A DNA stretch of 64,000 bases. Source: a virus. Under the pieces are notes generated by a model. It ran no database searches. It was not told where the DNA came from and saw only the letters and a list, made by a program, of their open reading frames with translations. The translations under genes and the position numbers were made by a program. Shown here piece by piece: positions 3-60,303 of the stretch. Numbering within the stretch: the first letter of the stretch is position 1; every line of letters starts with the position of its first letter. The stretch is taken from the IMG/VR virus record IMGVR_UViG_3300027833_000044, positions 1 through 64,000 of that record; one strand, 5' to 3'.

Positions 3-200
3 GACAATCTAGAAGTTGCACAATGGATTAGAGACAATCTAGACTTTGACCAAGTCATCTCTGAGTTCTATGTAGATGGTGACCCAACGTCTGGTTGGAT
101 TCATTTATCCTACGTAAGTCCTGAAGCGAATCGTAATAGATGTTTGACCGCAACACGTGTGGACGGTAAAGTCCAATATAGTGTTGGACTGCCTGAGTGA
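3..200 (+). CDS. C-terminal part of an M15-type peptidase (probable endolysin), 5' end outside window
   Basis: An open frame runs from the left edge to TGA at 198-200 (65 codons visible). The visible residues include AQWIRDNLDFDQVI, SGWIHLSY and a closing NRCLTATRVDGKVQY stretch. This is the pattern of the C-terminal half of D-Ala-D-Ala carboxypeptidase/endolysin proteins (peptidase M15), where the W-I/V-H-x-S-Y histidine is a zinc ligand. Such proteins cut peptidoglycan peptide bridges and commonly serve as endolysins. The N-terminal zinc-binding motif lies outside the window, so activity cannot be judged. The stop overlaps the GTG start of the next gene. Confidence 0.7.
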   Translation, partial: DNLEVAQWIRDNLDFDQVISEFYVDGDPTSGWIHLSYVSPEANRNRCLTATRVDGKVQYSVGLPE

Positions 201-727
201 AACATGTACAGAAACATGTACAGGTGTTTGCAATAGACCAGTTTGATAGTCTACAAGCAGAAGCATTATTACAAATACCTGTAAGTAACAAACCTGTCTA
301 TGGGGACTATGATGTTCATGGAGACCCTACGAAATGGGACTTCGATTCTAAATCATATTCCCTTGTTACCAAAAAATTAATTAAGGATGCAATAGAAAAA
401 TACTGTGAATCATGGGGATGTAATTCATATACATTAAATACTCTGTGGTATCATGTATATAATAAAGGTGGCAGTTATATGTCACACACCCACACCCTAT
501 CAAATATGACTGGTGTGGTACACTTGTTATTAGAAGATGAAAGAGACTATACTGATATAGTCGGTTATGAGGATTTATGGTGTACAGGAAAAATAAAAGA
601 AGGTGAGGTTGTATTATTCCCATCAATGACACCACACAAATCAAATCCAGTTCATGGAAAGAAAATCATTATCGGTTTTAATTGGGACATGTATTCGGAT
701 ATGCAAACATATAAGGTAGTACAGTGA
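197..727 (+). CDS. 2OG-Fe(II) oxygenase-like protein
   Basis: The 176-residue protein has a double-stranded beta-helix signature. A GGSYMSHTHT segment carries H97 and H99 (the H-x-H/D iron motif), followed by a hydrophobic SGV-like strand and a FPSMTPHKSNP segment whose H147 would be the distal iron ligand. The residue usually holding 2-oxoglutarate (Arg) seems replaced by Lys (HGKKIIIGFNW, K155/K156), so the cofactor may be bound differently. This class hydroxylates small molecules, peptides or nucleic acid; the substrate is unknown. The start is GTG at 197, overlapping the previous stop; an in-frame GTG at 224 is also possible, and neither has a good Shine-Dalgarno sequence. It opens the glycan/modification island. 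Confidence 0.65.
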   Translation: MKHVQKHVQVFAIDQFDSLQAEALLQIPVSNKPVYGDYDVHGDPTKWDFDSKSYSLVTKKLIKDAIEKYCESWGCNSYTLNTLWYHVYNKGGSYMSHTHTLSNMTGVVHLLLEDERDYTDIVGYEDLWCTGKIKEGEVVLFPSMTPHKSNPVHGKKIIIGFNWDMYSDMQTYKVVQ

Positions 728-1554
728 ATTTAATATTTCAATACATGATAACAAACGAGGAGACCGAGAAACGTTCTCCAGTTCCACAATATCCACAAGG
801 TACTAGGTCAGAACTCTATCGTGTGACTGGGGATTTGTCTGCAAAATCGTTTCAAATCTATGCGGATAAGATTGGATGTAAACACCAATATTCCACTAAA
901 CAAGTATTCACCGAAGGTAAGACTGGGTCAACTGTGTTGCTCTATGAATGCCTACGTATCATCTATGACCCTCTTTACGAACAATTCGACAAGATTGCAT
1001 TCATTGATACTGATATCATCTGTAACACCGAAGAGAACATCTTTGATGAAACTGGTGATTATGAGATTACAGGTGTTCTTGAATCTGAAATACGTACTGG
1101 TAAAGACGGTGGATACAATACTTGGGATTTCAGTAAGAAGACAAGAGATGCACTGGTAACCAAGTATAAGCGTAATGGTATCCCATGTGTCCCCACAGAA
1201 CCACCATATCGTCCCTCTTGTATCACTACCTTCAATACTGGTGTAATGGTATGGACTAAAGAAGCACGTATGAAAGCACGTGAGAAGTTTGATGATTGGT
1301 ACGAATACATGTCAGACGGTGACAAACACGGTGACCCGTTTTGGATTAACAATGACCAACCATGGTTATCTGGACAGATAATGAAACACGGATTAACGTG
1401 GCAAAGTATCGACCAGAAATGGAATGACACACCTACTCATTGGCCAGATGACAGAGGATTTGACATGAATTTCCTCCATTATACTGGGGGTGGTAATAAG
1501 GTTGTTATGTTAGAAGATTATAAAAAGGGTAAATTTAAGTACTTAAAAGCTTGA
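724..1554 (+). CDS. Glycosyltransferase, GT8-like (GT-A fold)
   Basis: The 276-residue protein carries a D-x-D metal/nucleotide-sugar motif (D95-T96-D97 in IAFIDTDIIC), a mid-protein FNTGVMVW segment and a terminal HYTGGGNK segment, the usual order in GT8-type enzymes. It should transfer a sugar from a nucleotide sugar to an unknown acceptor in the cytoplasm. The start is a GTG overlapping the TGA of the previous gene (GTGA), implying translational coupling. It is one of several divergent GT-A proteins within 17 kb (see 6618, 16048 and 58440), so it probably works in a multi-step glycan pathway. Confidence 0.7.
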   Translation: MNLIFQYMITNEETEKRSPVPQYPQGTRSELYRVTGDLSAKSFQIYADKIGCKHQYSTKQVFTEGKTGSTVLLYECLRIIYDPLYEQFDKIAFIDTDIICNTEENIFDETGDYEITGVLESEIRTGKDGGYNTWDFSKKTRDALVTKYKRNGIPCVPTEPPYRPSCITTFNTGVMVWTKEARMKAREKFDDWYEYMSDGDKHGDPFWINNDQPWLSGQIMKHGLTWQSIDQKWNDTPTHWPDDRGFDMNFLHYTGGGNKVVMLEDYKKGKFKYLKA

Positions 1555-39202: not shown

Positions 39203-39207
39203 GAAGT

Positions 39208-39657
39208 ATGGCAATACGTAGAGCGTTCGCACAAGAAGATACTAACCTCCAGTCTGCTACGGTAACGACTAGTAGGGAGAGGCAGTATTCTGATATAGAC
39301 CTTTCATTTAAGGTGAAACCTACCAGTGGAGAAATCTTCAAGAAGGTAGATGGAGCCGCAGTGAAACAGGCAATCAAGACCCTAGTTATGACAAATAGAC
39401 TAGAGAAACCTTTTCGTCCCGATTTTGGTGGAGACGTGCAAGGACAGTTGTTCGAACTAGCGGATAGAGGACGGTCTTCTATTCTACGTAGAGGTATTAT
39501 ACAGAATATAGAAGTATATGAACCCAGAGCAGAAGTTCTTAATGTGATTGTAAAAATGCAACCTGATAGACACAGTCTGGACGTAACTATTAAATTTAAG
39601 GTAGTGAATACAACGGAAGAAGTAGAATTCACAACAACACTTGCAAGGTTAAGATAA
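39208..39657 (+). CDS. 25: Baseplate wedge protein gp25
   Basis: The 149-residue protein belongs to the GPW/gp25 family: YSDIDLSFKVKPTSGEIFKKVDGAAVKQAIKTLVMT read as pieces, then NRLEKPFRPDFGGDVQGQLFE (the E-R-P-F-x-P-x-x-G core that forms the sheath-initiating loop), and VEVYEPRAEVLNVIV-type C-terminal strands. gp25 joins gp6, gp7 and gp53 and starts sheath polymerisation. The message appears leaderless. It is followed one nt later by gp6. Confidence 0.9.
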   Translation: MAIRRAFAQEDTNLQSATVTTSRERQYSDIDLSFKVKPTSGEIFKKVDGAAVKQAIKTLVMTNRLEKPFRPDFGGDVQGQLFELADRGRSSILRRGIIQNIEVYEPRAEVLNVIVKMQPDRHSLDVTIKFKVVNTTEEVEFTTTLARLR

Positions 39658-39658
39658 C

Positions 39659-42498: not shown

Positions 42499-42509
42499 TG
42501 TAAAATACT

Positions 42510-42517
42510 TATAAATA
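42510..42517 (+). promoter_or_regulatory. Late promoter (TATAAATA)
   Basis: Perfect TATAAATA 22 nt before ATG 42540; predicted +1 about 42523. Confidence 0.75.
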
Positions 42518-42539
42518 GATTAAATAGACGGATTATCAA

Positions 42540-43565: not shown

Positions 43566-43570
43566 TTGAA

Positions 43571-44938: not shown

Positions 44939-47900
44939 ATGTCAAAGACATTTACATCTAACGTATTTCAATCAACCTATAAGGATGATTTTAGGGACAG
45001 TGATAATTATCATCGTGTCCTCTTTAACAGTGGTAGAGCGATTCAAGCACGTGAACTTACCCAGTTACAAACAATCATTCAAGAGGAAATCGGAAGATTT
45101 GGTCGTAATATTTTCCTAGATGGTTCTGCCGTAAATCCTGGCGGGCCTCATGTCAATAGTAATTACGAGTTTATTAAATTAGATACTTCAGTAAGAACTC
45201 TACCAGACGATACCTCTTCTTTACTAGGACTTGAGTTTACTCATAGTGCAACAAGTACTGCTGTAAGAATTCTAGAAGTTGTTCCTGCTACAGGTTCAGA
45301 CCCAGCAACACTATATGTTCAATACACAAACACCTCTGGTGGTTCTGTGGGAACAAACCCTGTTCGTATGAATGCGGGTGTTGATATTTCAAGTGGTAGT
45401 TTTACCTTTACTGTACAATCAACAAATACTATTGCAAACCCTGCCGTAGGACAAGGTTGTCAAGTATCAAATGCAGCGGGTGATTTCTTTACTCGTGGAC
45501 ACTTTGTATTTGCAAAACCTCAATCACTTATTATATCAAAATATACAAGATATCCTACTAAAACTATTGGTTTTAGAGTAACAGAAGACATTGTTACTGT
45601 TGCAGATACTAACGAGTTATATGATAATCAGGGTGCAAATCCTAATCTATCCTCGCCTGGCGCTGACAGATATCGTATCAAACTTACTTTAGTAACAAAA
45701 GCTGACGTTGCCGCAGATGAAAACTTTGTTTATTACTGCGATATTGTTGAAGGTAATATAGTTGACCAAGTGACTGGTGCAGATACTTACAATGCACCTA
45801 ATACACTTGTTGCACAAAGAACCTTTGATGAGTCTGGTGATTACATTGCAAAAGACTTCACTATAGATTTTAGTGACTCAGGAGACAATTTACTTGCATC
45901 TGTATCAGATGGTACTGCATACATAAACGGACATCGTGGTGCAACAGAAAAACCAACACCTCTTACTATCGCAAAACCAAGAACTGACGTAACTTTAACG
46001 AATGAAGTATCTGGTATTAGTTATGGTCAATTTGTCTTGTGTAGTGAAGTAAAGGGTGACATTGGTTCATTATTTAAGACAGTTAATCTATCAACATCTA
46101 CTACTAACCCTGCTGCAAGTGTTACAGGTACAGCAAGAGTTCGTTTTGTAGAAAAGAGTGGTGCTCAATTTAAAGTCTATCTATTTGATATCAAGATGAA
46201 TAGTGGACAGTCTTTCCGAAATATTAAAACACTTGGTACTACCACAGCTAATAGAGCAATCCCTGTTTTTGAATCTAGTAAAGCAGTGATTAAGGATGCG
46301 ACTAAAGTAAACTTAGTATATCCTCTTCCTAATCCAAGACCAAGAGCGATTACAGACGTTGACTTTGAAGTTCAAAGAGTTTCTGCTACGATTTCTAATT
46401 CGTCAAGTTCATTCTCTATGCCCAACTTGACCGTGACTGGTGAAACGTATGTGAATACAAGTGATTGGATTGTTGTCAACGCATCTACTGGTGCGGTACA
46501 AACTGGTGCAACCTTTGGTTCTTCTGGTACTACCGCTATGACTGTTAGTAACGTAGCATCTGCCAATGCTATCGTGTATCATAAAGTTAATAAATCACAA
46601 CCAGTAGTTAGACCAAAGACACTAACCGATGCAACAAAAACTGCAACACTATCAACCGATTCTTTAACTGGTGCAAAATATCTAGATTTAAGTAAAACTG
46701 ATATCTATAGTGTACAATCAATTAGACTAACTAATTCTGGTGGTACAGATATCTCTCATCAATTTACTGTTGATGATGGTCAACGAGCAGGATTCTATGG
46801 TAATGGTCGATTGGTATTGAATGGTGGAGAGACTCAAAACGGAACAGTTTATTGTGCATTTAAACATTTTGTTCATGGTAATGGAGATTACTTCTCAGTT
46901 AACTCTTACGAAGGTAAGGTTGATTATGACAAGATACCCGCATTCAAAGTCGGGCCTAGAACATCCGTAAACTTACGTGACGTAGTTGATTTCCGTTCTG
47001 CGGTAAACTCTAGTAATGTATTTACTGCTTCAACACAAAACGAAATCCCTGCTAATGGTGATATCTTCCAAGGTGACGTAACATATTATGTTCCTCGTTC
47101 AGATAAAATCGTAGTTACAGAACAAGGTGAAGTTAAAAATATTCTCGGTGAAGCAGGATTCTCTTCACAGATTCCCGAAACTCCATCAAATACTCTAGGT
47201 CTATTTGAACTAGAACATAACGCATATGGTCTAAATGACTCTGACGTAGTTGTGACTCCTCTCAAAGCGAAAGGATTTACAATGAAAGACATCTCTGAAC
47301 TTGAGAATAGAATTGACAAGTTAGAAGAAGCAACAACTCTAAGTATGTTAGAACTTGATACCTCTTCACTTTTAGTTCTTGATTCTGCTGGAAACTCCAG
47401 AATGAAATCAGGTTTCTTCGTAGATAACTTTGTAAACAGAGCATTCTCAGACGCAGAAAACTCAGAGTATCGTGCTGCTATTGAACCAACTAAAGGTTTA
47501 CTTTCTTGTGCAGTGTTTGAAGATAACGTTGGACTTGTATATGACAGTGCCGCATCATCGAACACTATTCTTAAAGGTGATACGATATTCCTTAATTATA
47601 CACATGTTGAATCAATAAGTCAACCCGTAGTTTCTGGAACAGAGAACGTTAACCCATTCGCAGTTATTACTGGGGAAGGAAACCTTACTCTATCTCCCGC
47701 TTCGGATGAGTGGTTTCAAACATCATACAAACCCGCAAACGTAATTAACAAGACTGCGGAAGAACAACTAGGTGACCTAAACGAAGGTAACCTTGCAGTA
47801 GGTACTGCACAGAAACGTGGATTCGCTGGCGGTGGTGGTTCATGGCAGTGGTCTGGAGCGCCTTTCATTCCATTATTAGGATTCGGTGAATTCGGTATTG

Positions 47901-50137
47901 GTGGTGGCGGTGGTGGTATCGGTAACCTCTTTGGAGGATGGAGAGGAGCGGGTCAGTGGAACTGGTCTGGTCTAAACACCCAAAGAAGTTCAAACGGTAT
48001 AAACCAAACTGGTGTGTCTTCATCTAATGAAGGTGGATTTACTGGTAGAACAACAAGTTTCAGTCAACAAGTAGTTGTTGGTAATAGAACAGTTCGTAAG
48101 GTTGTTGGTGATAAAACTGTATCATTAACATTCCTTCCATTCATTCGTTCTCGTGAGGTATCTTTCCGTGCAGAAGGTCTAAGACCTAACACTAGATACT
48201 TCCCATTCTTTGATGGTAAAGATGTTGCAACTTTCTGTAAAGAAAAAGCATTCCAAAGACATGCAAGTGGAACTTTCCTAAGTGGTAAAGAAAATAGATT
48301 AGCTACTACTCACCCAGAGGGTTCTCAGAATTTAATATCTAACTCAAATGGTGAAATTGACGGTTCATTCTTTATTCCATCAAACGAAACAACTCGTTTC
48401 CGTGCGGGAACAAGAGAGTTTAAATTACTTGATATTAGTAAGAATGATGATGCCGCTTCTTTATCACACGCATCAAATAACTATGTTGCTCAAGGTACAT
48501 TAGACACCAGACAGAAGACTGTTACATCTACTCGTATTACTCAAGTAAGAACACGTAGATGGACAGAGACTACACGTGTCCGTAATCGTGACCCCCTTGC
48601 ACAATCATTCACAGTGACTAAACCCTCTGGAATGTTTGTTACTAAGGTACAGACTTATTTTAAAACCAAGGATGCGAATATTCCTGTTGAATTACAGATT
48701 CGTCCTATGGTAAATGGTGCTCCATCTTCTACAGAGATTATTGGTAACGCATCTAAGTTCTTGAACCCAAGTGCGGTAAACCTTCCTTCTTCTCAAACAC
48801 AAGCTGCGGTCTTAAATGCACCCACTACATTTGAGTTTGATGAACCAATCTTCTTGAATCCAGAACAGGATTATTGTATTGTTCTTCTTGCAGAATCAAT
48901 TGATTATAACGCTTATGTCGCAGAGACTTATGCGTTTGAACTTGGTTCTACAGAAAAACGTATTTCACGTCAACCATCTATGGGGTCATTATTTAAGTCT
49001 CAGAATGGTAAGACATGGGAGCCAGACCAAACAAAAGACCTTGCATTTAAAATCTTCACTGCGGACTTTGATACTGCGGGTGGTTATGCAGTGTTTGAAA
49101 ACGCTCCTCTCGAAAAAGAAGCTGTTTCAAGTAATCCATTCTTTACAACAACATCCGATGCGACAGTCACTATGTTATTCCCGAACCACGGGTATGATGT
49201 AAGTGATACTATCACAATTTCAGGTGCAGTTGGTGGTAATGGATTATCTGCGGGTAATATAAACGGTAACAGAACTGTTACTCACGCAGATGGATTCGGT
49301 ATCAAATTTGAAGCGGGTAGTACTGCAAATGCGGGTGGTAGAATTGGTGGAAGTGCAGTTAAGGCGGATAGACAAGTTCTGTTCGATACTGTTGTTCCCG
49401 AATTTACAACACTACAACCCGATGATACAAATATAACATATAATGTTAAGTTTACTACTGGTAAATCATTTGCCTCTGTCGGACAAACAAGATATCAAAA
49501 AGATGGTGCGTACTCTTCTGAGATTCGTATTGGAGACGAAAACTATTTCCCAACTCCAAGACTTATTGCTAAGAGTGCAAACGAGACTGCTGAAATTACA
49601 GGTGGTGCTAAGTCCACAACCTTTAAAGTTAATATGTCAACAGTCCGTAGCGATGTTTCTCCATTGGTTGATGCACAAAGAGTATCACTTAAAACTTCAA
49701 ACAATATTATTGATAATCAAGCGGCATCTGCTGCTGCGGGATTCAATGTTCCGTTAAGTTATGTTGCAGAAACCGCTTCGTTTGGTGGTTCTTCTCTTGC
49801 AAAACACATGACCACAGTTGGTCAACTCGAAGAACCCGCAGTTGGTTTAAAACTAATAATTTCTTGTTTAAGACCAGTTGGTTCTGCCTTTGATTTATAT
49901 TGGAGAGTTGCACAAGACGGTGAAAATATCTTTGATTTAGATTGGACACTAGAAACACCAGAACAAACGATTGCTGCTGATGAAAGAAACTTCCGTGATT
50001 ATCGTTTCCTAATTGGTGGAGATGGTGGAGATGTAGATGCATTCTCGCAATATCAATTTAAGATTGTAATGCGTACCAATAACTCTGCAAAAGTTCCTTT
50101 CTTTAAGGACTTACGTGCAATTGCAATGGCAACATAA
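44939..50137 (+). CDS. Giant baseplate/tail-fibre protein (DUF4815-type)
   Basis: The 1732-residue protein begins TFTSNVFQSTYKDDFRDSDNYHRVLFNSGRAIQARELTQLQTII in segments, then FGRNIFLDGSAVNPGG, the N-terminus I recall from DUF4815 proteins of cyanophages. Later SFRAEGLRPNTRYFPFFDGKDV and RDPLAQSFTV segments are also common to those proteins. Between about residues 958 and 1020 lies a Gly/Trp-rich insertion. It probably replaces or extends gp9/gp10 to link wedges and fibres. SD AAGG at 9 nt. It ends one base into the next gene. Confidence 0.75.
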   Translation: MSKTFTSNVFQSTYKDDFRDSDNYHRVLFNSGRAIQARELTQLQTIIQEEIGRFGRNIFLDGSAVNPGGPHVNSNYEFIKLDTSVRTLPDDTSSLLGLEFTHSATSTAVRILEVVPATGSDPATLYVQYTNTSGGSVGTNPVRMNAGVDISSGSFTFTVQSTNTIANPAVGQGCQVSNAAGDFFTRGHFVFAKPQSLIISKYTRYPTKTIGFRVTEDIVTVADTNELYDNQGANPNLSSPGADRYRIKLTLVTKADVAADENFVYYCDIVEGNIVDQVTGADTYNAPNTLVAQRTFDESGDYIAKDFTIDFSDSGDNLLASVSDGTAYINGHRGATEKPTPLTIAKPRTDVTLTNEVSGISYGQFVLCSEVKGDIGSLFKTVNLSTSTTNPAASVTGTARVRFVEKSGAQFKVYLFDIKMNSGQSFRNIKTLGTTTANRAIPVFESSKAVIKDATKVNLVYPLPNPRPRAITDVDFEVQRVSATISNSSSSFSMPNLTVTGETYVNTSDWIVVNASTGAVQTGATFGSSGTTAMTVSNVASANAIVYHKVNKSQPVVRPKTLTDATKTATLSTDSLTGAKYLDLSKTDIYSVQSIRLTNSGGTDISHQFTVDDGQRAGFYGNGRLVLNGGETQNGTVYCAFKHFVHGNGDYFSVNSYEGKVDYDKIPAFKVGPRTSVNLRDVVDFRSAVNSSNVFTASTQNEIPANGDIFQGDVTYYVPRSDKIVVTEQGEVKNILGEAGFSSQIPETPSNTLGLFELEHNAYGLNDSDVVVTPLKAKGFTMKDISELENRIDKLEEATTLSMLELDTSSLLVLDSAGNSRMKSGFFVDNFVNRAFSDAENSEYRAAIEPTKGLLSCAVFEDNVGLVYDSAASSNTILKGDTIFLNYTHVESISQPVVSGTENVNPFAVITGEGNLTLSPASDEWFQTSYKPANVINKTAEEQLGDLNEGNLAVGTAQKRGFAGGGGSWQWSGAPFIPLLGFGEFGIGGGGGGIGNLFGGWRGAGQWNWSGLNTQRSSNGINQTGVSSSNEGGFTGRTTSFSQQVVVGNRTVRKVVGDKTVSLTFLPFIRSREVSFRAEGLRPNTRYFPFFDGKDVATFCKEKAFQRHASGTFLSGKENRLATTHPEGSQNLISNSNGEIDGSFFIPSNETTRFRAGTREFKLLDISKNDDAASLSHASNNYVAQGTLDTRQKTVTSTRITQVRTRRWTETTRVRNRDPLAQSFTVTKPSGMFVTKVQTYFKTKDANIPVELQIRPMVNGAPSSTEIIGNASKFLNPSAVNLPSSQTQAAVLNAPTTFEFDEPIFLNPEQDYCIVLLAESIDYNAYVAETYAFELGSTEKRISRQPSMGSLFKSQNGKTWEPDQTKDLAFKIFTADFDTAGGYAVFENAPLEKEAVSSNPFFTTTSDATVTMLFPNHGYDVSDTITISGAVGGNGLSAGNINGNRTVTHADGFGIKFEAGSTANAGGRIGGSAVKADRQVLFDTVVPEFTTLQPDDTNITYNVKFTTGKSFASVGQTRYQKDGAYSSEIRIGDENYFPTPRLIAKSANETAEITGGAKSTTFKVNMSTVRSDVSPLVDAQRVSLKTSNNIIDNQAASAAAGFNVPLSYVAETASFGGSSLAKHMTTVGQLEEPAVGLKLIISCLRPVGSAFDLYWRVAQDGENIFDLDWTLETPEQTIAADERNFRDYRFLIGGDGGDVDAFSQYQFKIVMRTNNSAKVPFFKDLRAIAMAT

Positions 50138-50343
50138 TGAATAAATTGATACCCGTAGAAGGAAACTCAAATTTGGCAAGATGTCCAAATACGGGTACAA
50201 TTATTAATATAAATAAAGATGAGATAAGTAAAGCTCGTTTATTAAAAGCGAGAAGAAGAGACCAAGAAAAAGAGTTTTTAGAATTAAAACATGAAGTCGG
50301 TGAAGTAAAAGAACTCCTTAACAAACTAATAGAGAAACTGTAA
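50137..50343 (+). CDS. Small coiled-coil protein, unknown
   Basis: This 68-residue protein has an N-terminal ARCPNTGTIININKDE segment (a beta-turn region) and a long coiled coil (LLKARRRDQEKEFLELKHEVGEVKELLNKLIEKL in segments). Coupled by one-base overlaps with both neighbours. It may be a fibre chaperone or a linker in the baseplate; no family is recognised. A TATAAATA sequence inside it may start the fibre transcripts. Confidence 0.6.
   Translation: MNKLIPVEGNSNLARCPNTGTIININKDEISKARLLKARRRDQEKEFLELKHEVGEVKELLNKLIEKL
50208..50215 (+). promoter_or_regulatory. Possible late promoter inside small coiled-coil gene
   Basis: TATAAATA about 128 nt before ATG 50343. It could drive the fibre genes, but its intragenic position makes chance likely. 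Confidence 0.3.
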
Positions 50344-51842
50344 TGGCTACAACAAAACCGACAATTACAACGATTAATGATACGTTCACTACGTTGGTTA
50401 CTAATACCAACACAGTCTCATTAGACTTAGGTGCAACTGGTCGATTAAATACGAATCAAGATTCTAGTGCCGTTGCAGCTATTAACGAACTGGAACTAGG
50501 TATTCGTGGTGCTTCCAATAACCTAGTTGCTACAGACCTTGCAGACTTTACTGCCAATAACATCGTATCTGCACTACATGAACTTGATAGTGATTTACAT
50601 GGTGTTGGTGGTGGTAACGCTAAGGCAGACCTAACAACAAACGCAAAAGCAGTTGTTGATGGTATTAATGAACTAGAAGTTGCTATTCGTGGAACTGATA
50701 ACGGACTGGTTTCAGCTATCCTATCAACCACTGCGACTAACTTAGTTACTGGTATCGCTGAACTTGACTCCGATATCGGTGCAAGACCTCATACTACTCT
50801 GACCACTGATGCGAAAACTCTTACAGGTGCGGTCAACGAGTTAGATAGTGATTTGGGTGCAAGGGAATCTCTGGGAACAATAAATAAAACATCTGTTGTT
50901 AATGCAGTCAATGAACTAGAAACTGCAATCCGTGGTACTACAGCAAATTACACTATTAGTACTAGTAGTAATGATTTAGTAGGTGCGGTAAACGAACTTG
51001 ATGCATTGCAAGGTAATGTTGTAATGGGAACAAGTGCATCTACCGTTACAGGTGCAATTGCAGAACACGATGCAGAACTTGGTGACTCTGCAATGGGAAC
51101 GGCCAAAACTACTATAACAGGTGCGATTGCAGAACTAGAAGTAGAGATTGATACACTTAACACAAAGGTTGAACCCACTCAATCATTAACAACTACTGCA
51201 ACTACATTATCAGATGCAGTAAATGAACTTGATGCACTACAAGGCGATAGTGCCTTGGGAACGGTCAAAACTACTATAACAGGTGCAATCCACGAACTTC
51301 ATGGCGAAGTTGATGGTATTCATACTGAAATTGGTAGTAGTAATATTAATAGTATTGCCTCAAGTAATAATCATATTACTGGTGCCTTGGTTCAATTACA
51401 TACAGAACTAGGAAGTGCCGCATTAGATACTAGTGCAAATACTCATACTGGTGCAATCAATGAACTGCACACCACACTTGGTCAAGCATTAACAGATAGC
51501 GGTGCCAATGGTAATCTTGTTCGACAAGGTAACGTTACCTTTAATAATGTAGGACTTGGACTACATGTACTTGACAGTGCTATAGGTAATTTAGTTGGTT
51601 TAAATGCTACAGATGTTCCTGCTGCGGGTCATAATAACTTAGTATCCGCTATCAACGAAGTTGCTGCAAGAGTAACTGGACTTGATGCTTCTGGTGCTGA
51701 GGTTGATTCTAGAATCGGTTCATTATCAAATCTACACGCTGCTTTCACAGGAACAGAAGATGACAGTATAGTGAATGCTATAAATGCACTGAGAGGCGAT
51801 ATCCCATTAATATTTAATGAGAATGGCGTACAACTTAATTAA
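50343..51842 (+). CDS. Fibrous repeat protein, tail fibre component
   Basis: The 499-residue protein consists of about 13 copies of a unit of roughly 30-35 residues ending in A-[IV]-N-E-L-D/E-x-x-[IL]-[RG] (for example LTGAVNELDSDLGARESLG, VVNAVNELETAIRGTT). Each unit is helix-turn, giving a long trimeric coiled-coil-like rod. It lies at the start of the fibre cluster. Possibly it joins the giant baseplate protein to the tetrad-repeat fibres. No catalytic features are visible. Confidence 0.65.
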   Translation: MATTKPTITTINDTFTTLVTNTNTVSLDLGATGRLNTNQDSSAVAAINELELGIRGASNNLVATDLADFTANNIVSALHELDSDLHGVGGGNAKADLTTNAKAVVDGINELEVAIRGTDNGLVSAILSTTATNLVTGIAELDSDIGARPHTTLTTDAKTLTGAVNELDSDLGARESLGTINKTSVVNAVNELETAIRGTTANYTISTSSNDLVGAVNELDALQGNVVMGTSASTVTGAIAEHDAELGDSAMGTAKTTITGAIAELEVEIDTLNTKVEPTQSLTTTATTLSDAVNELDALQGDSALGTVKTTITGAIHELHGEVDGIHTEIGSSNINSIASSNNHITGALVQLHTELGSAALDTSANTHTGAINELHTTLGQALTDSGANGNLVRQGNVTFNNVGLGLHVLDSAIGNLVGLNATDVPAAGHNNLVSAINEVAARVTGLDASGAEVDSRIGSLSNLHAAFTGTEDDSIVNAINALRGDIPLIFNENGVQLN

Positions 51843-51853: not shown

Positions 51854-54403
51854 ATGACTGTTCCATTAAAGCTAAAAGACAGTGATGGTGCTGAATTAGC
51901 TGAGTTCTCTTCATCCGAAGAGAATTATTTAGCATTCCTAACTGGTCAACACATGGCGGGTTTTGGTGCGGGTACGCCTGGCACATTAACAACTACTGAA
52001 TCTGGTGTTACCACTAATATTGGGTCAATAACAGATACTAAGTACGACCAATCGGTTGGTCACTCTACTGGGAGTGGACTTCAAACTATTACAACAACTA
52101 CATCTTCTCTGCTTCAAGCAGCGGGAAGTATTGATAATGCAACAACAAGAGCTTATACTAATTTTCGTCTTCCTATAATGCAGAGAGACAGTGATGGTCA
52201 AAGACTTATTCGTGAAATGAATGACTCAGATATGGACTCTTTAGTCACTAGAATACGTAATCGTATTTTTGTATCTGACTATCCTAGCACATTCCGTCTT
52301 GGTTCTAGTACTCCTTCGGGTACTTACAGCACTTATCTTAGTGGTATTGCAAGTGACACTAGAACAGATGGTACAGATATATCGTTTAACATTTACAGAA
52401 AAACAAATGATAATGCACCAACTAAGGTATTACCGTTTTCTATAAAACGTGCTGCTGGGTCTACAGGAACATATCAAGGTTTTCAGTTGATGACCGACCA
52501 ACAAGTCAGAGAAACTTTTGCTGATTATGTTAGAAATAAGATTGCGGCAGGTATAAGTTCGAATGAGGTTGGAACATATAAACTATACCCTTCTGGTACA
52601 ACACCAACGGGTCAAGGTTTATCTGGAACATGGGCTGCAAAGGGAACTGCGACAGATACTAGACAGGTTGTCGCTGACCAAAACTATACCAGAAGTCGTC
52701 AATCAACATATATAAAATTAAGAAATTCAAATTATAGTCTTGCATATCAGAGAGTTAGGTCTTCGACCTACATAGGCACCAGTGAGTCTGGCCCTCGAAC
52801 AAGTACTTATACGACCACAGCAATCCATGTTAGAACTGAAACCTATGCGGCATCTGGTTTCCTTGGTAATTTTACTGGTGATTTCACTGGCAGTACAGAA
52901 AGAACATACTCAAAACTAAGACAAACTCAAGCAGATTACACTGGTAATTTCACGGGTGAGTTTAGTGCAGTTTACCAAAGATTGAGTACATTCTTAGGTG
53001 ATTATGGTAATAAGACCGTTAATAGTATTGTTGTGTCGGATTTCACTGGTAATTCAACAACAGACTTTATTGGTGTGTATTCTAGAAGTCAAGCTTTTTT
53101 AGGTAATTTCACTGGTACATACAATCGTACTAGTACAAGAGACAGCGAAGAAATTAATGCTGCGAATTATTCCAGAGACTTTGAGGGTAACTTCTCTAGA
53201 GATTTCGAGAGAACAAGAGACTCAAACTACCAAAGAACTTCTTATACTAACTACCAAAGAACTTCTTATCAAGATTATACAAGAGACTCCAATAGAACTT
53301 CTTATCAAGATTTTACAGGTGACTTTCAGGGTAATTATTCTAGAAACTTTGCTAGAAATTACGATAGACTACGGGTAGTCACCACTGGTTACCAGACCGA
53401 TTTCCAAAGAGGCACCGCAAAGCAGGGCACCTTGGAGAACTTTACAGGTAATTTTGTAGGTACAAGTTATTATACTAGACAAAGACAAAACTATGCATAT
53501 GGTTGGTCTGGTTATTATTATCAAAAGAACGGTTCGAGCACAGATGATTATTGGCGAGTATCATATCAGGGTACTACTGTTAATCTCAATGGTGGGGCTT
53601 TCTTTGTATTTTTCTCTGCTGGCAGTAACAACGATGCAAATAAACAGTGGGGGCCAACGCCTGGCACACCTGATTCAGAAAATATTAGTCAACACTTTCC
53701 TCAATCAGACTATGACTTAATAACAAGTTATAATCTTACTACAGCTATTCCGTCTTACCATGACTTTATTAGTAATGGTTGGGATGGGTTTGAATCCCGA
53801 ATAGCTAATGTAACGGGTGTAATAATCGGTAACTATGAATATGAAAGAGGTTCGTTTGTTTACAACGAAACTTCAACTGGTGGTCAAAACACATATTATT
53901 ACAGATTAAGACGTAGATTTGCTACATACTATACTGGTAACTATGCAGCACAATATTTAGGTGGATATGCAAGAAACTATTCACGTGGATTTACACGTAA
54001 TAGTACTGCCAACTCTCAAGCTTCCTATGCAGGAGACTATACAGGAGATTTTGCGGGTGATTTCTTAGGAGATTACAGTAGAAGTTTTGAGGGAGATTAT
54101 CAAAGAAGTTTTGAAGGAAATTTCTCAAGAAACTATATGTCTACCAGAAGTTCAAACTATAGTGGTGGTGACGCATATGTTAGAGAATATGTTGGTAATT
54201 TCATAGGTAATTTCTCAAGAACCTTTAGTATCCCCTATGAGGGCAATTATCAAAGGAACTTTGTTGGAAACTACACGGGCGATTATCAAAGAAACTTCCT
54301 CGGTAATTTCCTTAGAAACTTCCTTGGTAATTATGCGGGTGCCACAATTACGTCAAATCCAGAAAATATCGAGACTTATACTCTCTACGTAAGAACAGCA
54401 TAA
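51854..54403 (+). CDS. Tetrapeptide-repeat fibre protein A (with globular insert)
   Basis: The 849-residue protein has an N-terminal domain (about 1-275), homologous to that of 54414 (ENYLAF, SDYPSTFRLGSSTPSGTYSTYLSG, SIKRAAGSTGTYQGF). Two blocks of four-residue repeats, [YF]-x-[GR]-[NDT] (about 280-535 and 690-830), follow. Between them is a non-repeat insert (about 537-690) with many aromatic residues. The end ETYTLYVRTA matches the paralogue. It is probably a receptor-binding fibre, with the insert as adhesin head. Ribosome site GGAGAGAAC. Confidence 0.7.
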   Translation: MTVPLKLKDSDGAELAEFSSSEENYLAFLTGQHMAGFGAGTPGTLTTTESGVTTNIGSITDTKYDQSVGHSTGSGLQTITTTTSSLLQAAGSIDNATTRAYTNFRLPIMQRDSDGQRLIREMNDSDMDSLVTRIRNRIFVSDYPSTFRLGSSTPSGTYSTYLSGIASDTRTDGTDISFNIYRKTNDNAPTKVLPFSIKRAAGSTGTYQGFQLMTDQQVRETFADYVRNKIAAGISSNEVGTYKLYPSGTTPTGQGLSGTWAAKGTATDTRQVVADQNYTRSRQSTYIKLRNSNYSLAYQRVRSSTYIGTSESGPRTSTYTTTAIHVRTETYAASGFLGNFTGDFTGSTERTYSKLRQTQADYTGNFTGEFSAVYQRLSTFLGDYGNKTVNSIVVSDFTGNSTTDFIGVYSRSQAFLGNFTGTYNRTSTRDSEEINAANYSRDFEGNFSRDFERTRDSNYQRTSYTNYQRTSYQDYTRDSNRTSYQDFTGDFQGNYSRNFARNYDRLRVVTTGYQTDFQRGTAKQGTLENFTGNFVGTSYYTRQRQNYAYGWSGYYYQKNGSSTDDYWRVSYQGTTVNLNGGAFFVFFSAGSNNDANKQWGPTPGTPDSENISQHFPQSDYDLITSYNLTTAIPSYHDFISNGWDGFESRIANVTGVIIGNYEYERGSFVYNETSTGGQNTYYYRLRRRFATYYTGNYAAQYLGGYARNYSRGFTRNSTANSQASYAGDYTGDFAGDFLGDYSRSFEGDYQRSFEGNFSRNYMSTRSSNYSGGDAYVREYVGNFIGNFSRTFSIPYEGNYQRNFVGNYTGDYQRNFLGNFLRNFLGNYAGATITSNPENIETYTLYVRTA

Positions 54404-54413: not shown

Positions 54414-57400
54414 ATGGGAACTACAACACTAAAACTTGAAGGTACGAATGGTGACCTCAAGGAGATAACCACCGTAGAGGAAAACTACCTTGCATATCAA
54501 GCAGGGTTGCATTTGTCTGCGTTGGATTCGAGTGCAGTAGGAACACTTACCGCATCCTCAACCAATAATACTTTAATTGGAACATATACCGACACCACAT
54601 TTAATGATGCTGTCGGAACACACGGATTTTCTGGTGGTAATGTTCCTGTTGTACAAACAACAACTTCTTTATATCAAAGGGAAGGAGTTGCCGATTTCGC
54701 AGGCGATTCCGATGCATTCCGATATCCTATTGAATATAATAATAATAGTGGAACTGATGAGATTCATGAACTTGATTCCTCAGAAGTAGACACACTTACA
54801 GACCGTTTGGTAAGTCGTATTGCGACATCCGAATATCCTGGCACTTATCGTCTTGGGTCTTCTTCACCAAATGGAACATACTCTACTTATAAAGCAGGGG
54901 TATTTTCTGATAGATTACAAACAGGCGCTTCAGGAACAGTTTATAACCTTTATGTGAAGTCTTCTATGTCTTCACCTACTGCAATCAGACCCGTTACAAT
55001 TAAAAGAGCGAGCGGGATGACTGGTTCTTTCCAAGGTCTGAAAGAAATGACCGATGCGGAAATTAAATATTCTTTCGGTTCAAGAGTTCAATCCAGAATA
55101 ACAAATGGTTCGAATGGAGTTGGAACATACCAATTAAGAAGTAATGTTCAAGGTGCTCCAACAGATACAGGAACTTGGTCAACTCGTGGTACTGCAACTG
55201 ATACTCGTTTTAATCTAGTAAACACTGATTATAGTGCAAACTATCAAAGGGTTAGTACAACAGATTCTACTAGAAACCGTACCGCAGATTTCTCTAGAAG
55301 TGTTGATTATACTGGTAACTATCAACGAAACTTTACAGGTAACTTTCTGGGTGAATATACTGGAGACTTCACAGGTAACTTTGTTGGTGACTTTGTAGGT
55401 AATTATTCTAGAAGTTTTATCGGAGATTACGTAGGTAATTACTCCAGAAACTTTGAAGGTAACTATACTGGTAATTATTCTAGAAACTTCCTTGGAAACT
55501 ACATAGGTAACTATGCACGTGCATATTCTGCTGTCTATTCAAGAACAAGAGTAACAACATACACTGGTGATTTCACTGGTAACTATGTCGGAAACTATTC
55601 AAGAAACTATAGTGCTGCATATACCAGAAACAGTACTGCGGAATTTGTAGGTGATTTTACTGGTAATTATACAGGTAACTATACAAGAAACTATAGTGCA
55701 AATTATCAGAGAACTCGTGTTACTAACTTCCTTGGAGATTTTACTGGTGATTATACTGGTAACTATGCTCGTAACTATGAAGCGGATTATACAAGAAATA
55801 GAGTCACGACATTTACAGGTAACTTCTTAGGTGATTACACAGGTAACTACGCTAGAAACTTCGAAGCAGACTACCAAAGAACTCGTATCACTAACTCAGC
55901 GGGAACATATACAGGTAATTTCTTAGGAGATTACACTGGTAACTATGCCAGAAACTTTAGTGCAAACTATCAGAGAACCCGTTCAACTGATTACACACAG
56001 GTCTTTACAGGTAACTACGAAGGTAATTATACTGGTAACTATGCTCGTAATTATCTTGGTAACTACGCAAGAGCATACACCCGAACACGTATTACTGATT
56101 ACGTAGGAGATTTTGCGGGCGACTATGCAGGGAATTTCTTAGGTGACTATACAGGTAACTATGCACGTAATTATCTTGGTAACTATGTTGGTGATTATGC
56201 AGGAGACTTTGCAGGAAACTTCTTAGGTGACTACACAGGTAACTATGCACGTGCTTATAGTGCAAACTACCAAAGAACCCGTGCAACTAACTACCAAAGA
56301 ACTCGTGCAACCAACTACGCAAGAGCATTTAGTGCAAACTACCAGAGAACCCGTGCTACTAACTACCAGAGAACCCGTGCAACTAACTATGCTAGAAACT
56401 TCTTAGGTAACTACGCTAGAAACTATCTTGGTAACTATGTAGGAAACTATACAGGTAACTTTGCGGGTAACTATACTGGTAACTTTGTAGGTAACTATGC
56501 AAGGACTCGTGCTACTGCATACGCAAGAACACGTGCTACTAACTATGCGGGTGGTGGTAAAAGTGGTGACGCTTATAACTACACTGGTAACTTTGTAGGT
56601 AACTACACTGGTAACTTTGTAGGTAACTACGCAAGAACAAGAGCAACTGCATATAGTAGAACAAGAGCAACTGCATATGCGAGAACTCGTGCGACCAACT
56701 ACGCAAGAGCGTTTACTGCAAACTATGCTAGAAACTATCTTGGTAACTATCTTGGAGACTATGTTGGTAACTTCTTAGGAGATTACACTGGTAACTATGC
56801 TCGTAATTATCTTGGTAACTATCTTGGAGACTATGTTGGTAACTTCTTAGGTGACTATACAGGTAACTATGCTAGAAACTTTAGTGCAAACTACCAGAGA
56901 ACATCTACTAGAGATTCTAATAGAACTCGTATTACCGACTATAGTCAGAATTATGCAAGAAACTTTAGTGCAAACTATCAACGAACATCTACTAGAGATT
57001 CTAATAGAACTCGTATTACTACATACACGGGTGACTTTGTAGGTAATTACGCAAGAAACTTTACTGCAAACTACGCTAGAAACTTTAGTGCCGCCTATGC
57101 CCGAACCCGTGTAACTGATTCCACAGGTAACTTTGTTGGTGATTTCTTAGGAGATTATACAGGAAACTATGCACGTAATTATAGTGCGAACTATCAAAGA
57201 ACCCGTGCTACTGATTATGTTGGTGATTATGTTGGTGACTTTGCGGGTAACTATGTAGGAAACTATGCTCGTAATTACCAAGCAGATTATCAGAGAACCC
57301 GTGCAACTGATTATGCAGGAGATTTTGCGGGTAACTACACTGGTAACTATGCTAGAAACTTCTCTGCCGCATACACTAGAAATAGTACAAATACCTTTGT

Positions 57401-57965
57401 GGGAGACTTCTTGGGTGACTATACTGGTAACTATGCTAGAGAATTTACTGCGAATTATTTAAGAAATAGTGTTGCAACATTCTTAGGTGACTTTGCGGGT
57501 GATTACACTGGTAACTATGCAAGAGCATTTAGTGCAGACTACACAAGAAATAGTGTTGCTGATTTTGCGGGTAACTTTGTCGGTGAATACACTGGTAACT
57601 ACAGTAGAAGTTTTACTGCGGATTACCAAAGAACAAGGGTGTCTACATATAGTGCTGCATATAGTAGAACAAGAACTTCTCTATATAGTGCAAACTATCA
57701 GAGAACAAGAAGTTCTGCATACACAAGGAATTCCACAGTTGACTCCACAAGGAACTCTACTGCGGTATTCACAAGGACTTGCGTTGTAGTACGTTCAAGT
57801 GCATATAGTAGAACAAGAACAAGTGTTACTACCTTCACAGGTGATTACACTGGTAACTTTGTTGCAGAGTTTACAGGAGATTATGTTGGTAATTATGTAG
57901 GAACAACAATTGATTCGGGTAGTTCCGTAATTAAAACGTATACCCTATACCAGAGAACAGCATAA
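54414..57965 (+). CDS. Tetrapeptide-repeat fibre protein B
   Basis: The 1183-residue protein has an N-terminal domain (1 to about 270) shared with 51854: ENYLAYQAGLHLSALD, SEYPGTYRLGSSSPNGTYST, TIKRASGMTGSFQGL. From about 275 to 1163 comes an almost unbroken four-residue repeat, [YF]-x-G-[ND] alternating with [YF]-x-R-[NT] and R-x-T-N units (for example YTGNYARNYSANYQRT). One break, GGGKSGDAY, lies near residue 715. The end KTYTLYQRTA is the common C-terminus. It is a very long thin fibre by inference, with Arg-rich and Tyr-rich faces. Confidence 0.75.
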   Translation: MGTTTLKLEGTNGDLKEITTVEENYLAYQAGLHLSALDSSAVGTLTASSTNNTLIGTYTDTTFNDAVGTHGFSGGNVPVVQTTTSLYQREGVADFAGDSDAFRYPIEYNNNSGTDEIHELDSSEVDTLTDRLVSRIATSEYPGTYRLGSSSPNGTYSTYKAGVFSDRLQTGASGTVYNLYVKSSMSSPTAIRPVTIKRASGMTGSFQGLKEMTDAEIKYSFGSRVQSRITNGSNGVGTYQLRSNVQGAPTDTGTWSTRGTATDTRFNLVNTDYSANYQRVSTTDSTRNRTADFSRSVDYTGNYQRNFTGNFLGEYTGDFTGNFVGDFVGNYSRSFIGDYVGNYSRNFEGNYTGNYSRNFLGNYIGNYARAYSAVYSRTRVTTYTGDFTGNYVGNYSRNYSAAYTRNSTAEFVGDFTGNYTGNYTRNYSANYQRTRVTNFLGDFTGDYTGNYARNYEADYTRNRVTTFTGNFLGDYTGNYARNFEADYQRTRITNSAGTYTGNFLGDYTGNYARNFSANYQRTRSTDYTQVFTGNYEGNYTGNYARNYLGNYARAYTRTRITDYVGDFAGDYAGNFLGDYTGNYARNYLGNYVGDYAGDFAGNFLGDYTGNYARAYSANYQRTRATNYQRTRATNYARAFSANYQRTRATNYQRTRATNYARNFLGNYARNYLGNYVGNYTGNFAGNYTGNFVGNYARTRATAYARTRATNYAGGGKSGDAYNYTGNFVGNYTGNFVGNYARTRATAYSRTRATAYARTRATNYARAFTANYARNYLGNYLGDYVGNFLGDYTGNYARNYLGNYLGDYVGNFLGDYTGNYARNFSANYQRTSTRDSNRTRITDYSQNYARNFSANYQRTSTRDSNRTRITTYTGDFVGNYARNFTANYARNFSAAYARTRVTDSTGNFVGDFLGDYTGNYARNYSANYQRTRATDYVGDYVGDFAGNYVGNYARNYQADYQRTRATDYAGDFAGNYTGNYARNFSAAYTRNSTNTFVGDFLGDYTGNYAREFTANYLRNSVATFLGDFAGDYTGNYARAFSADYTRNSVADFAGNFVGEYTGNYSRSFTADYQRTRVSTYSAAYSRTRTSLYSANYQRTRSSAYTRNSTVDSTRNSTAVFTRTCVVVRSSAYSRTRTSVTTFTGDYTGNFVAEFTGDYVGNYVGTTIDSGSSVIKTYTLYQRTA
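55238..57905 (+). repeat. 12-bp-periodic DNA coding for tetrapeptide repeats
   Basis: Most of the segment is built from near-copies of a 12-bp unit such as GGTAACTATACA. Larger duplications are multiples of 12: a 72-bp pair beginning at 56732 and 56804, and an 84-bp pair beginning at 56876 and 56960. Synonymous codon changes between copies (TAT/TAC, GGT/GGA, AGA/CGT) show selection on the protein. Confidence 0.85.
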
Positions 57966-58006: not shown

Positions 58007-58468
58007 ATGGCAAGAGTATGGTTAGAAAACGCATTTTGGGAAACCCCTAAAAAACAAATATTGAATGCGATTAGTGAAGAAACGGTTGACAATAAGGAAA
58101 TACGTCAAGTTCATAAAATGAACAGACATAATCCAAATGGTACTGAGAATGCATTATTCTTAGAAGCGGTTGAATCCCTTACCGAAGAAAAGATAGACGA
58201 ATCTAGTAAGAAACGTCTAGAAAAGAAACAAGCGGAAGCGGAACTTGAGAAACAAAAACAACTTGAGCATGAACGTGCTAGGAAGTTAGAAAAGTTATTC
58301 GAGTATAAACTAGAAACTTTTGAAATTCCTGAAATTAAGAATTCCAAAAATCGACTATTAAAATCAAAGTTAAGACGCTCTAGGTCTATCCCAGAAGTTA
58401 ACTTATATGCTATGATGATTGTGAAGGAATCTATAGATAATGAACTTGAAGAAATCCAACCAAAGTAA
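58007..58468 (+). CDS. Charged coiled-coil protein, unknown
   Basis: The 153-residue protein has a good ribosome site (TTAGGAGATAAAAC). It begins MARVWLENAFWETPKKQILNAI and has a long charged helix (SSKKRLEKKQAEAELEKQKQLEHERARKLEKLF in segments) followed by a basic stretch. I recall similar proteins beside tail fibres in marine T4-like phages, perhaps as a fibre chaperone. No firm family is recognised. It overlaps the next glycosyltransferase by 29 nt. Confidence 0.6.
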   Translation: MARVWLENAFWETPKKQILNAISEETVDNKEIRQVHKMNRHNPNGTENALFLEAVESLTEEKIDESSKKRLEKKQAEAELEKQKQLEHERARKLEKLFEYKLETFEIPEIKNSKNRLLKSKLRRSRSIPEVNLYAMMIVKESIDNELEEIQPK

Positions 58469-59198
58469 AGGTTTTGTAGTTGTAGCATCGAAGAATCAAA
58501 ACTTCTACACATATGCGGTCAACTTAATCGAAGCTATTAAAGACTATTATCCAGAAGCACTTATTACTCTGGTGACGGAGGAGCGTTTCCTTGATAGTCG
58601 AGCAGACGAAGCAGACCAAATAATATTTTGTACAGACCATTACCGTGCAAAACTATGGGGTATGGCACAAACTCCTTATGATATTACCATGTATGTTGAT
58701 GCAGACATGGATTGTGAACATGAAGATATTATTACTATTTGGGATGAGATGAAAGACTATGATATGGTCTTCCATGAACTTACCAAAGAACGTGAAAAAT
58801 TCTATGCAATTCGTGAATTCAAATACGAAGGTAAAACAGAGAAGTTTTCTCTATGTGGTGGAGTCTGTCTCTACAGAAGTGAAAATCCTCTTGTTCGTGA
58901 ATTTATGGAAGATTGGTTTGAGATATATAATTCTCAACATACCAATCAGTGGCAACCAAAAGGGTTTGACCACGACCAATTTCAAAAGGATTTAAAACAC
59001 TTTGACCAAACAACTCTCTGGTACATGACAGAGAAAATGGACAAATATAAAGATTTAAAAATAGGAATCTTTTCAGATGATATTAGGTGGAACTACTTTA
59101 CCCAGTATGCATATGAAGGATTAAAATCAATAGAAGGGAAACCACCTATATTAAGACATTACTCAGGTTCACTGAAGAAGGATAGACTTATAGTATGA
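58440..59198 (+). CDS. Glycosyltransferase, GT8-like, next to tail fibres
   Basis: The 252-residue GT-A protein has ITMYVDADMDCEHED (D87, D89, D91 D-x-D motif), FSLCGGVCLY (FNxGv equivalent), DHDQFQKDL acidic segment and HYSGSLKKDRL at the end, the H-x-S-G-x-x-K phosphate motif of GT8. Located behind the Tyr/Arg-rich fibres and before a 2OG oxygenase, it may glycosylate the fibres or the host surface. It starts 29 nt inside the upstream gene and overlaps the next by 4 nt. Confidence 0.75.
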   Translation: MNLKKSNQSKGFVVVASKNQNFYTYAVNLIEAIKDYYPEALITLVTEERFLDSRADEADQIIFCTDHYRAKLWGMAQTPYDITMYVDADMDCEHEDIITIWDEMKDYDMVFHELTKEREKFYAIREFKYEGKTEKFSLCGGVCLYRSENPLVREFMEDWFEIYNSQHTNQWQPKGFDHDQFQKDLKHFDQTTLWYMTEKMDKYKDLKIGIFSDDIRWNYFTQYAYEGLKSIEGKPPILRHYSGSLKKDRLIV

Positions 59199-59863
59199 TA
59201 GATGTTCCGATTAAAAATAAAGATGTATTATCTGTATTAGACAGATGGTTATGGTATTACGACAATAGGGAAGACCTTAAAAAAGTTGTGCGACTTCACG
59301 GTAAATCAACGGAAAGAGACTTCTATGTTGGGGAAAAACATCGTGATGAAATCATTGCTATGGACACAAACCATGAAGGATTTCCCGATTCGGTTCATGG
59401 ATACTCTTTAAAATCGGATAGAATAGAATTTGTTAAAGGGAATAATCCAGAGAATGCAAATTATATCGCTAAGTTTAGTGAATTGAACACAGAACTTTGT
59501 CACATTCTATCATCTAAAAACAATGCATTAGCACAACTGTATCCACCAGATGGACACATTTCGTGGCATAATAATGCAAATGCATCTGCATATAACATCA
59601 TTTTCTCTTGGTCAGAAACAGGAGATGGGTGTTTTAAGTATGTTGATGGTCACACTGGTAATGAAGTTGTCATGCAAGATGTCAAAGGATGGCAGTGTAA
59701 AGCAGGATACTTCGGTGCATATCAAGAACCTTGGTATAAAAGGGTCTACCATGCAGCCGAAACTGACTGTTGGAGAATGACCGTATCTTATATTTTCAAT
59801 CGTAGTGACATGTCCCATGGACTACAAGATGAAATAATAGAAGAAATAATGTCTGATTTTTGA
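59195..59863 (+). CDS. 2OG-Fe(II) oxygenase-like protein with HxN motif
   Basis: The 222-residue protein has LYPPDGHISWHNNANASAYNIIFSW in pieces, with H125 and N127 at the iron position (H-x-N instead of H-x-D), then GDGCFKYVD, and VYHAAETDCWRMTVSYIF with H186 and R194 for the distal iron and 2OG contacts. This fits an AlkB/P4H-like fold of T4-like phages. An Asn ligand would weaken iron binding, so activity is uncertain. Hydroxylating a fibre residue for the adjacent glycosyltransferase is an attractive idea. Confidence 0.6.
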   Translation: MIDVPIKNKDVLSVLDRWLWYYDNREDLKKVVRLHGKSTERDFYVGEKHRDEIIAMDTNHEGFPDSVHGYSLKSDRIEFVKGNNPENANYIAKFSELNTELCHILSSKNNALAQLYPPDGHISWHNNANASAYNIIFSWSETGDGCFKYVDGHTGNEVVMQDVKGWQCKAGYFGAYQEPWYKRVYHAAETDCWRMTVSYIFNRSDMSHGLQDEIIEEIMSDF

Positions 59864-59934: not shown

Positions 59935-60303
59935 ATGTTGACACCAAACTACGAAGATATTACAATCATACAGGGTGCAGATGTAGCGATAGAAATACAT
60001 CTCATCAATGACAGCGACAGTGCGTATGACCTTACTAATAGGGCTGTAACGTCTAAAATGAAAAGAAATTACACTGACTCTGCGGGTGACCCAGATACGG
60101 TGTCGTTTAATGCAGCTATCATTTCCCCCGCAACTCAGGGGATTGTGAATCTCTCACTAACTAATATCCAAACCGATGCATTGAAGACTCGTGGACGCTA
60201 TGTCTACGATGTAGAAATATCTTATGTCGATAGTGATTCCAATACAATAATTCAAAGAGTCCTCGAAGGTCAAGCAGAAGTAAGTCCTTCGGTCACTAAA
60301 TAA
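59935..60303 (+). CDS. Small beta-sandwich structural protein (BppU-N/Ig-like)
   Basis: The 122-residue protein begins EDITIIQGADVAIEIHL, then YDLTNRAVTSKMKRNY and a C-terminal RGRYVYDVEISYVDSD. This is the strand order of the N-terminal baseplate/fibre-attachment domain of BppU-like proteins. It stands alone just before a long fibre, so it probably attaches the fibre to the baseplate. The ribosome site is weak; an ATG at 59922 is in another frame. Confidence 0.6.
   Translation: MLTPNYEDITIIQGADVAIEIHLINDSDSAYDLTNRAVTSKMKRNYTDSAGDPDTVSFNAAIISPATQGIVNLSLTNIQTDALKTRGRYVYDVEISYVDSDSNTIIQRVLEGQAEVSPSVTK

Follow-up and report, generated by a model that had tools for sequence, protein, structure and literature searches.

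A giant marine myovirus tail-fibre protein whose four-residue repeats probably run out and back as two complementary arms

The stretch of DNA analysed here (the window) comprises 64,000 nucleotides and represents nearly all of a 64,023-base IMG/VR virus record, IMGVR_UViG_3300027833_000044. Our subject is one gene of its tail-fibre cluster, an open reading frame at 54414-57965 on the plus strand, which exists as an earlier note on the sequence had stated and encodes a protein of 1183 residues, largely built of four-residue repeats. The features of this gene, all on the plus strand, are:

54414..57965, plus strand: putative giant hairpin fibre protein, 1183 residues (open reading frame, period of four; more than 100 distinct relatives share the N-terminal domain and/or tail)
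54450..54695, plus strand: module A of the N-terminal domain (residues 13-94; hhalign to module B, P=1e-4; AlphaFold2 predicted local distance difference test (pLDDT) ~90)
54753..54983, plus strand: module B (residues 114-190), a complete copy whose own last strand is YNLYVK (hhalign to module C plus tail)
55029..55217, plus strand: first part of module C (residues 206-268), ending GTATDTR (hhalign to module B)
55218..56549, plus strand: arm 1 (residues ~269-712; arm length and mirror axis)
56550..56588, plus strand: tip motif GGGKSGDAYNYTG (residues 713-725), probable turn at the array midpoint
56589..57896, plus strand: arm 2 (residues ~726-1161; arm length and mirror axis)
57897..57962, plus strand: C-terminal tail (residues 1162-1183, 22 residues), predicted last strand of module C (hhalign gain; AlphaFold2 strand; structural alignment)

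The four-residue period is strict over residues ~276-1161. An aromatic residue is followed by another four positions later in 72% of cases and at lags of 8-20 in 66-71%; at lags that are not multiples of four such recurrence falls to 0-4%. The earlier note had seen only one break, GGGKSGDAY near residue 715, and this has to be corrected: Arg-type stretches such as RTRATN and STRDSN have no aromatic residue, and the register shifts twice, close to residues 290 and 1137. The GGGKSGDAY break itself preserves the register and lies at the array midpoint. The Gly-type and Arg-type units that had been described do exist, but instead of simply alternating they are ordered, in large part, according to the opposite arm. 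The repeat is conserved as protein and not as DNA: each of the nine copies of YTGNYARN is spelled differently in DNA, and the changes between the fibre and its relative L012 are concentrated at third codon positions. As had been remarked, it fits neither collagen nor pentapeptide nor heptad repeats, and it makes an uncommon fibre within a tail-fibre gene cluster.

Consistent with the statement that no described structure was known for such a repeat, no solved structure matches it by sequence: a search of the PDB with the fibre gave nothing meaningful, Pfam has no family for it and PHROGs offered only weak matches to unnamed families. A Foldseek search, which the earlier note had proposed, found no match to the fibre model in PDB or BFVD at E<=0.001. 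A match to Enterococcus phage 156 was discarded as chance, since it runs antisense to annotated genes. In the literature we found no paper on “tetrapeptide repeat” together with phage tail fibres, on “VTGN” or on the phage C48C1, discussed below. A scan of IMG/VR with the fibre gave 24 relatives, and reverse scans from neighbouring genes enlarged the family to 115 distinct sequences of 356 to more than 3394 residues. All 115 have the N-terminal domain, whole or partial, and most of the complete ones end with a tail like ETYTLYVRTA.

Profile alignment and a predicted model place the array, as an insertion, within the last hairpin of the three-module N-terminal domain. Module B terminates in a short hairpin and a strand (YNIYxR), and module C has no such strand; the C-terminal tail, which follows the array, supplies the missing one both in the profile alignment and in the AlphaFold2 base. 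In hhalign comparisons the match of module B to module C (E=6.6e-8) improves when the tail is added (E=4e-10, Prob 96.7%), and the tail alone matches the last strand of module B with P=3e-4 (P=0.2 for a column-shuffled control). The AlphaFold2 run (monomer, 43 sequences) gave pLDDT values of ~90 for residues 1-276, 83-97 for the tail and ~30 for the array, and the base strands that it predicts, 255-276 and 1158-1181, fit i+j = 1434-1436 (276+1158=1434). VIA-align searches with this fibre model, which is long and mostly of low confidence, returned two matches in all, both to MABP beta-prism domains and with an aligned range (42..1183) that takes in the tail. Since both ends of the array would lie in the same domain, the array would therefore form a giant out-and-back hairpin.

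This bears on the proposal of the earlier note that the repeat makes a beta-solenoid or stacked-strand fibre, in which the chain would make a single coiled passage from base to tip. In its favour are the strict even period, with an aromatic every four residues, and the general observation that solenoids are common among elongated repeat proteins. Nevertheless, a chain that runs end to end is at odds with array ends anchored in a single domain module and, as described below, with halves that pair antiparallel. The monomer prediction left the array unfolded and produced no solenoid, even though AlphaFold2 over-predicts beta-solenoids on perfect repeats (PMC11795689); our own expectation, from the same paper, that it would hallucinate one here proved wrong. 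The unfolded array is also what might be predicted for a disordered Tyr/Arg/Gly-rich adhesive loop or brush with no defined pairing of the arms, and the composition of the array (rich in Tyr, Arg, Gly and Asn, with a net charge of +36 and neither Pro nor His) would suit that as well.

If the array leaves and returns at one place, then a turn is expected in its middle, and GGGKSGDAY is found there. Measured to the flanking motifs, the arms on either side of it are 447 and 448 residues long. The same tip motif lies mid-array in the relatives L012, L016, L017 and L019, and at each of four lengths of protein with this motif the two arms differ by a single residue (447/448, 423/424, 293/294 and 281/282, in proteins of 1183, 1135, 875 and 850 residues). 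When 64 non-redundant relatives are taken together, non-repeat residues are most frequent at relative array positions 0.48-0.52 (68%, vs 36+-4% when rotated; 0/5000 rotations), and many relatives have a larger non-repeat segment in mid-array.

The two arms are also complementary at the level of single residues. Across the mirror, the correlation is -0.27 for Gly, -0.25 for Arg and -0.17 for aromatic residues, and it is confined to within a few residues of i+j=a+b+4, being about zero elsewhere. As a guard against circularity, the axis was picked on alternate 40-residue blocks and scored on the remaining ones. For antiparallel arms, 77 of 120 picks lay no more than 8 residues from the array mirror axis (8.5 expected), and in the held-out blocks Arg faced Gly in 1549 of the 1898 informative Arg/Gly pairs (82%). 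The same procedure applied to parallel arms gave no signal (897/1691 pairs, 53%, and no preferred offset). In relative L159 all of the held-out pairs were complementary (39/39 and 37/37), and for the window fibre both halves chose the same axis, with 52 Arg:Gly pairs vs 5 like pairs. The enriched cross-arm pairs are Tyr:Tyr (3.7x), Arg:Gly (3.7x), Arg:Phe (~2.5x) and Phe:Ser (~2x), and the octad Y-x-R-x-R-x-S-x opposes Y-x-[G/R]-x-[F/Y]-x-G-x; an octad of the first kind opposite another of that kind is absent from the 25 commonest combinations, where ~55 would be expected from the margins. That position 1 pairs with position 1 and position 3 with position 3 is consistent with the suggestion, made before, that Tyr/Phe and Gly/Arg lie on one face of a strand. 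With a pair matrix derived from 22 other proteins, most local segments between base and tip put the axis of the window fibre at i+j=1434, and the centre of this axis, residue 717, falls within the tip motif. In the global scan with this matrix the peak exceeds other in-phase axes by a modest margin only, since Tyr:Tyr pairs come round at every fourth residue. When plain residue volume was used instead of Arg/Gly classes, a clear axis emerged mainly in the longest relatives.

Furthermore, the arms appear to change together. With arm 1 and arm 2 of the relatives aligned separately, the comparison of L016 with L019 reveals one and the same series of indels in each arm (+14, -4, -4, -16, +4 and +18), and their distances from the base correspond. 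Over 118 pairs of relatives, which share ancestry so that neither these counts nor those for swaps are independent, 164 of 945 arm-1 indels have a partner of the same size no more than 12 residues from the mirror position (32.5 with randomised positions). When Gly and Arg are swapped in arm 1, the mirror residue swaps oppositely in 28/106 cases (26%); when arm 1 is unchanged, any Gly/Arg swap at the mirror residue occurs in 128/5140 (2.5%). The distant relative L029 (27% identity, 2838 residues, Lys/Gln-type units) has a mirror axis at 3067 vs an a+b of 3070, but with a code in which like faces like (Gly opposite Gly, r=0.44, z=12). The topology thus persists even where the code itself has changed.

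A solenoid leaves the equal arms, the antiparallel complementarity and the mirrored indels unexplained, and we regard it as highly improbable, the least credible of the alternatives considered here. A disordered loop or brush has no need of arms equal to within one residue, of complementary residues or of compensatory indels and swaps, and seems very unlikely. We consider it very probable, instead, that the protein is an out-and-back hairpin fibre with its arms paired antiparallel and its base in the three-module domain. Sequence statistics show the insertion, the equality of the arms, their complementarity and their compensatory changes; from these we infer the following structure. The protein would be a long adhesin in the tail fibres of a marine, T4-like myovirus, anchored by the base domain of ~276 residues; the chain would leave the last hairpin of module C, run out for ~445 residues, turn at GGGKSGDAY and come back over an equal length, its end forming the final strand of module C. 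Residue i would stand opposite residue 1434-i, with Tyr facing Tyr, Arg facing Gly or Phe and large side chains meeting small ones; this code would be accounted for by a cation-pi ladder, in which Arg lies above Gly and has aromatic rings to either side. The tip, at residue ~717, would place the turn, or in relatives the larger non-repeat segment, at the distal end, where it may bind the host. Were both arms extended beta strands, at ~0.33 nm per residue, the fibre could be up to ~147 nm (~150 nm) long. The arms may pair within or between chains, and a trimeric, six-stranded needle as in T4 gp37 seems the most likely form. A location in the virion is suggested by the position of the gene.

Several observations weigh against the paired hairpin. 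Owing to the period, near-equivalent axes differ by 4 (1430, 1434, 1436). Both halves gave the same axis in only 26 of 60 relatives, the failures being mostly shorter or insert-rich, and the pair counts across relatives share ancestry and are not phylogenetically independent. Neither the tandem paralogue of the fibre (51854-54403) nor the C48C1 relative has an ungapped mirror axis, and both have large non-repeat inserts. The AlphaFold2 array is without secondary structure; this is to be expected if partner chains are needed, yet it provides no positive support. Finally, we found no virion proteomics or microscopy of the fibre.

The closest known architecture is the needle of T4 gp37 (D11), which is inserted in the collar domain D10 and has equal arms of 50 residues (882-931 and 960-1009) with the tip between them (PMC6957217). 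As in the window fibre, the stem is an insertion in a base domain and two equal arms surround a tip. In gp37, Gly921 packs against Phe970 of another subunit (PMC6957217), and by our own arithmetic (921+970 = 882+1009) these form an exact mirror pair, small opposite large. The T4 long tail fibre measures 1450 Å (PMC6957217), similar to the ~147 nm estimated for the window arms. There are differences as well: the window arms (~445 residues) are ~9-fold longer and are built on a strict repeat of four residues that follows an Arg/Gly code, the fold search with the low-confidence model matched the base to MABP beta-prisms at modest Z and to no collar, the HxH iron motifs are not found in the His-free array, and there is no sequence match. 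The MABP matches to base and tail are MVB12B (3tow) and MPEG-1/perforin-2 (6u2w), with Z scores of 6.1 and 3.0 and 8% sequence identity. The MABP domain of MPEG-1 bears an “extraordinary elongated beta-hairpin” (PMC6753088), but the hairpins of these two matches are short and non-repetitive, unlike the window arms, and with such modest Z scores we do not claim homology. The “structural protein” of cyanophage S-RIM2, a tail fibre of the VTGN type, shares the period of four and G-N/D at positions 3-4, but has an aliphatic rather than an aromatic residue at position 1 and no matching N-terminal domain. Its V/L-T-G-N/D repeats (L002:1669-7407) have weak sequence matches to the T4 gp5 beta-helix.

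Directly downstream of the fibre gene lies a cassette of three genes:

58007..58468, plus strand: small conserved cassette gene
58440..59198, plus strand: glycosyltransferase-like protein with a conserved DxD (Pfam Nucleotid_trans at 2.4e-4, Glycos_transf_2 in 6/12 relatives; alignment)
59195..59863, plus strand: candidate 2-oxoglutarate (2OG)-Fe(II) oxygenase with a prolyl-hydroxylase fold (AlphaFold2 pLDDT 95, predicted template modelling score 0.91; Foldseek E=3e-6; VIA match to the Pseudomonas putida prolyl 4-hydroxylase)

All of 83 distinct glycosyltransferase-like genes are immediately followed by the oxygenase and 81 of them are preceded by the small gene, and a fibre of the same family or tail type lies directly upstream in 73 of the 78 loci with that DNA present. 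In L101, L108, L191 and L194 the cassette trails a different, non-repeat-fibre protein, and a period-4 protein is found farther upstream in the same locus. The oxygenase and the glycosyltransferase-like protein have more than 500 and more than 380 relatives, respectively, in IMG/VR. In the latter, D87 and D89 are invariant, and its relatives have weak Pfam matches (PF03407, PF00535). Profile searches of PDB and Pfam with the oxygenase gave no match, and only its predicted fold identified it: the model aligns with 4j25 over 147 residues (VIA Z=10.5) and has the double-stranded beta-helix. In 55 sequences of its family H125, N127, H186 and R194 are invariant, and the usual H-x-D/E...H iron triad is not found. 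With Asn in place of the Asp/Glu iron ligand, metal binding or the type of reaction may be altered.

The strict linkage suggests that the oxygenase and the glycosyltransferase-like protein act on the fibre, which all three products, the small one included, may modify. It would also suit a linear tetrapeptide-repeat chain that these neighbouring enzymes coat with sugars, as in TLP-4 (PDB 9ikm, repeat xTAS), a sugar-coated fibril; 9ikm is matched by the related VTGN repeat, though not by the window array. The cross-arm complementarity, however, implies side chains that pack together, the array has no Pro, N-x-S/T sequons are not enriched in it over D-x-S/T (0.415 vs 0.455), and many glycosyltransferases of such phages, those of the pelagimyophage recognition clusters, have been ascribed to changes of the host surface or O-chain (PMC7029224). 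This sugar-coated linear chain is thus very unlikely, although modification could accompany a hairpin too.

Returning to the paired hairpin, we propose tentatively, and with slightly less than even confidence, that it is a protein duplex: the arms of one chain, each of hundreds of residues, would be paired by a Tyr-Tyr/Arg-Gly/Arg-Phe code, would evolve by coordinated insertions, deletions and swaps as RNA stems do, and would be finished by their own hydroxylase-fold enzyme and glycosyltransferase. We know of no other protein with such arm pairing, nor of a fold whose two strands, each of ~440 residues, use a repeating code for mutual recognition and show matched changes at individual positions. 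Should it be confirmed, the structure of a fibre, its length and the place of its tip could be read from sequence by rule, and the design of long protein needles would gain a template. It would explain how marine phage fibres change in length, since both arms must change together, and would tie an overlooked oxygenase and glycosyltransferase-like pair to fibre maturation, a connection that is directly testable.

The fibre cluster lies between a DUF4815 protein at 44939-50137 and another, large fibre from 60315 onwards; other genes in it are:

50343..51842, plus strand: upstream tail-fibre protein (phrog_25848; PHROGs match)
51854..54403, plus strand: tandem paralogue of the fibre, 849 residues (42% identity over residues 3-281)
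59935..60303, plus strand: tail-fibre assembly-type protein (phrog_3304 / phrog_1084; PHROGs match)

The paralogue has the same N-terminal domain, tail and repeats, with a large non-repeat region mid-array. The only annotated phage record with the N-terminal domain is a hypothetical protein of 3348 residues from phage C48C1 (OQ984149). It has the domain, the repeats, the tail and the three following genes in common with the window fibre; it differs in being nearly three times longer, with several non-repeat segments and no ungapped axis. These segments, of ~100-240 residues, lie among repeat blocks (L001:14989-25032), and a stretch of ~75 residues that occurs twice in tandem suggests modular duplication. 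In two short relatives (L090:7539-8849 and L093:3148-4488) the middle of the array is swapped for other repeats, NYAGPT and NYLGEASGAV, and the base and tail are kept.

Baseplate genes with matches to T4-type families (31175-44929) lie upstream of the fibre gene, which has other fibre genes to either side; the gp8-like protein finds its closest records in phage C48C1 (35% identity), cyanophages and Pelagibacter phage HTVC008M. Matches to a gp5-type baseplate hub/lysozyme are split over 34499-35365 and 37149-38597, with an amidase-domain gene between them. The window has just two tRNA genes, at 18242-18402, both for tRNA-Arg (TCT and ACG). The fibre gene uses 65 AGA and 31 CGT codons, and these tRNAs may support translation of the Arg-rich fibre; AGA and CGT are also dominant in other structural genes.

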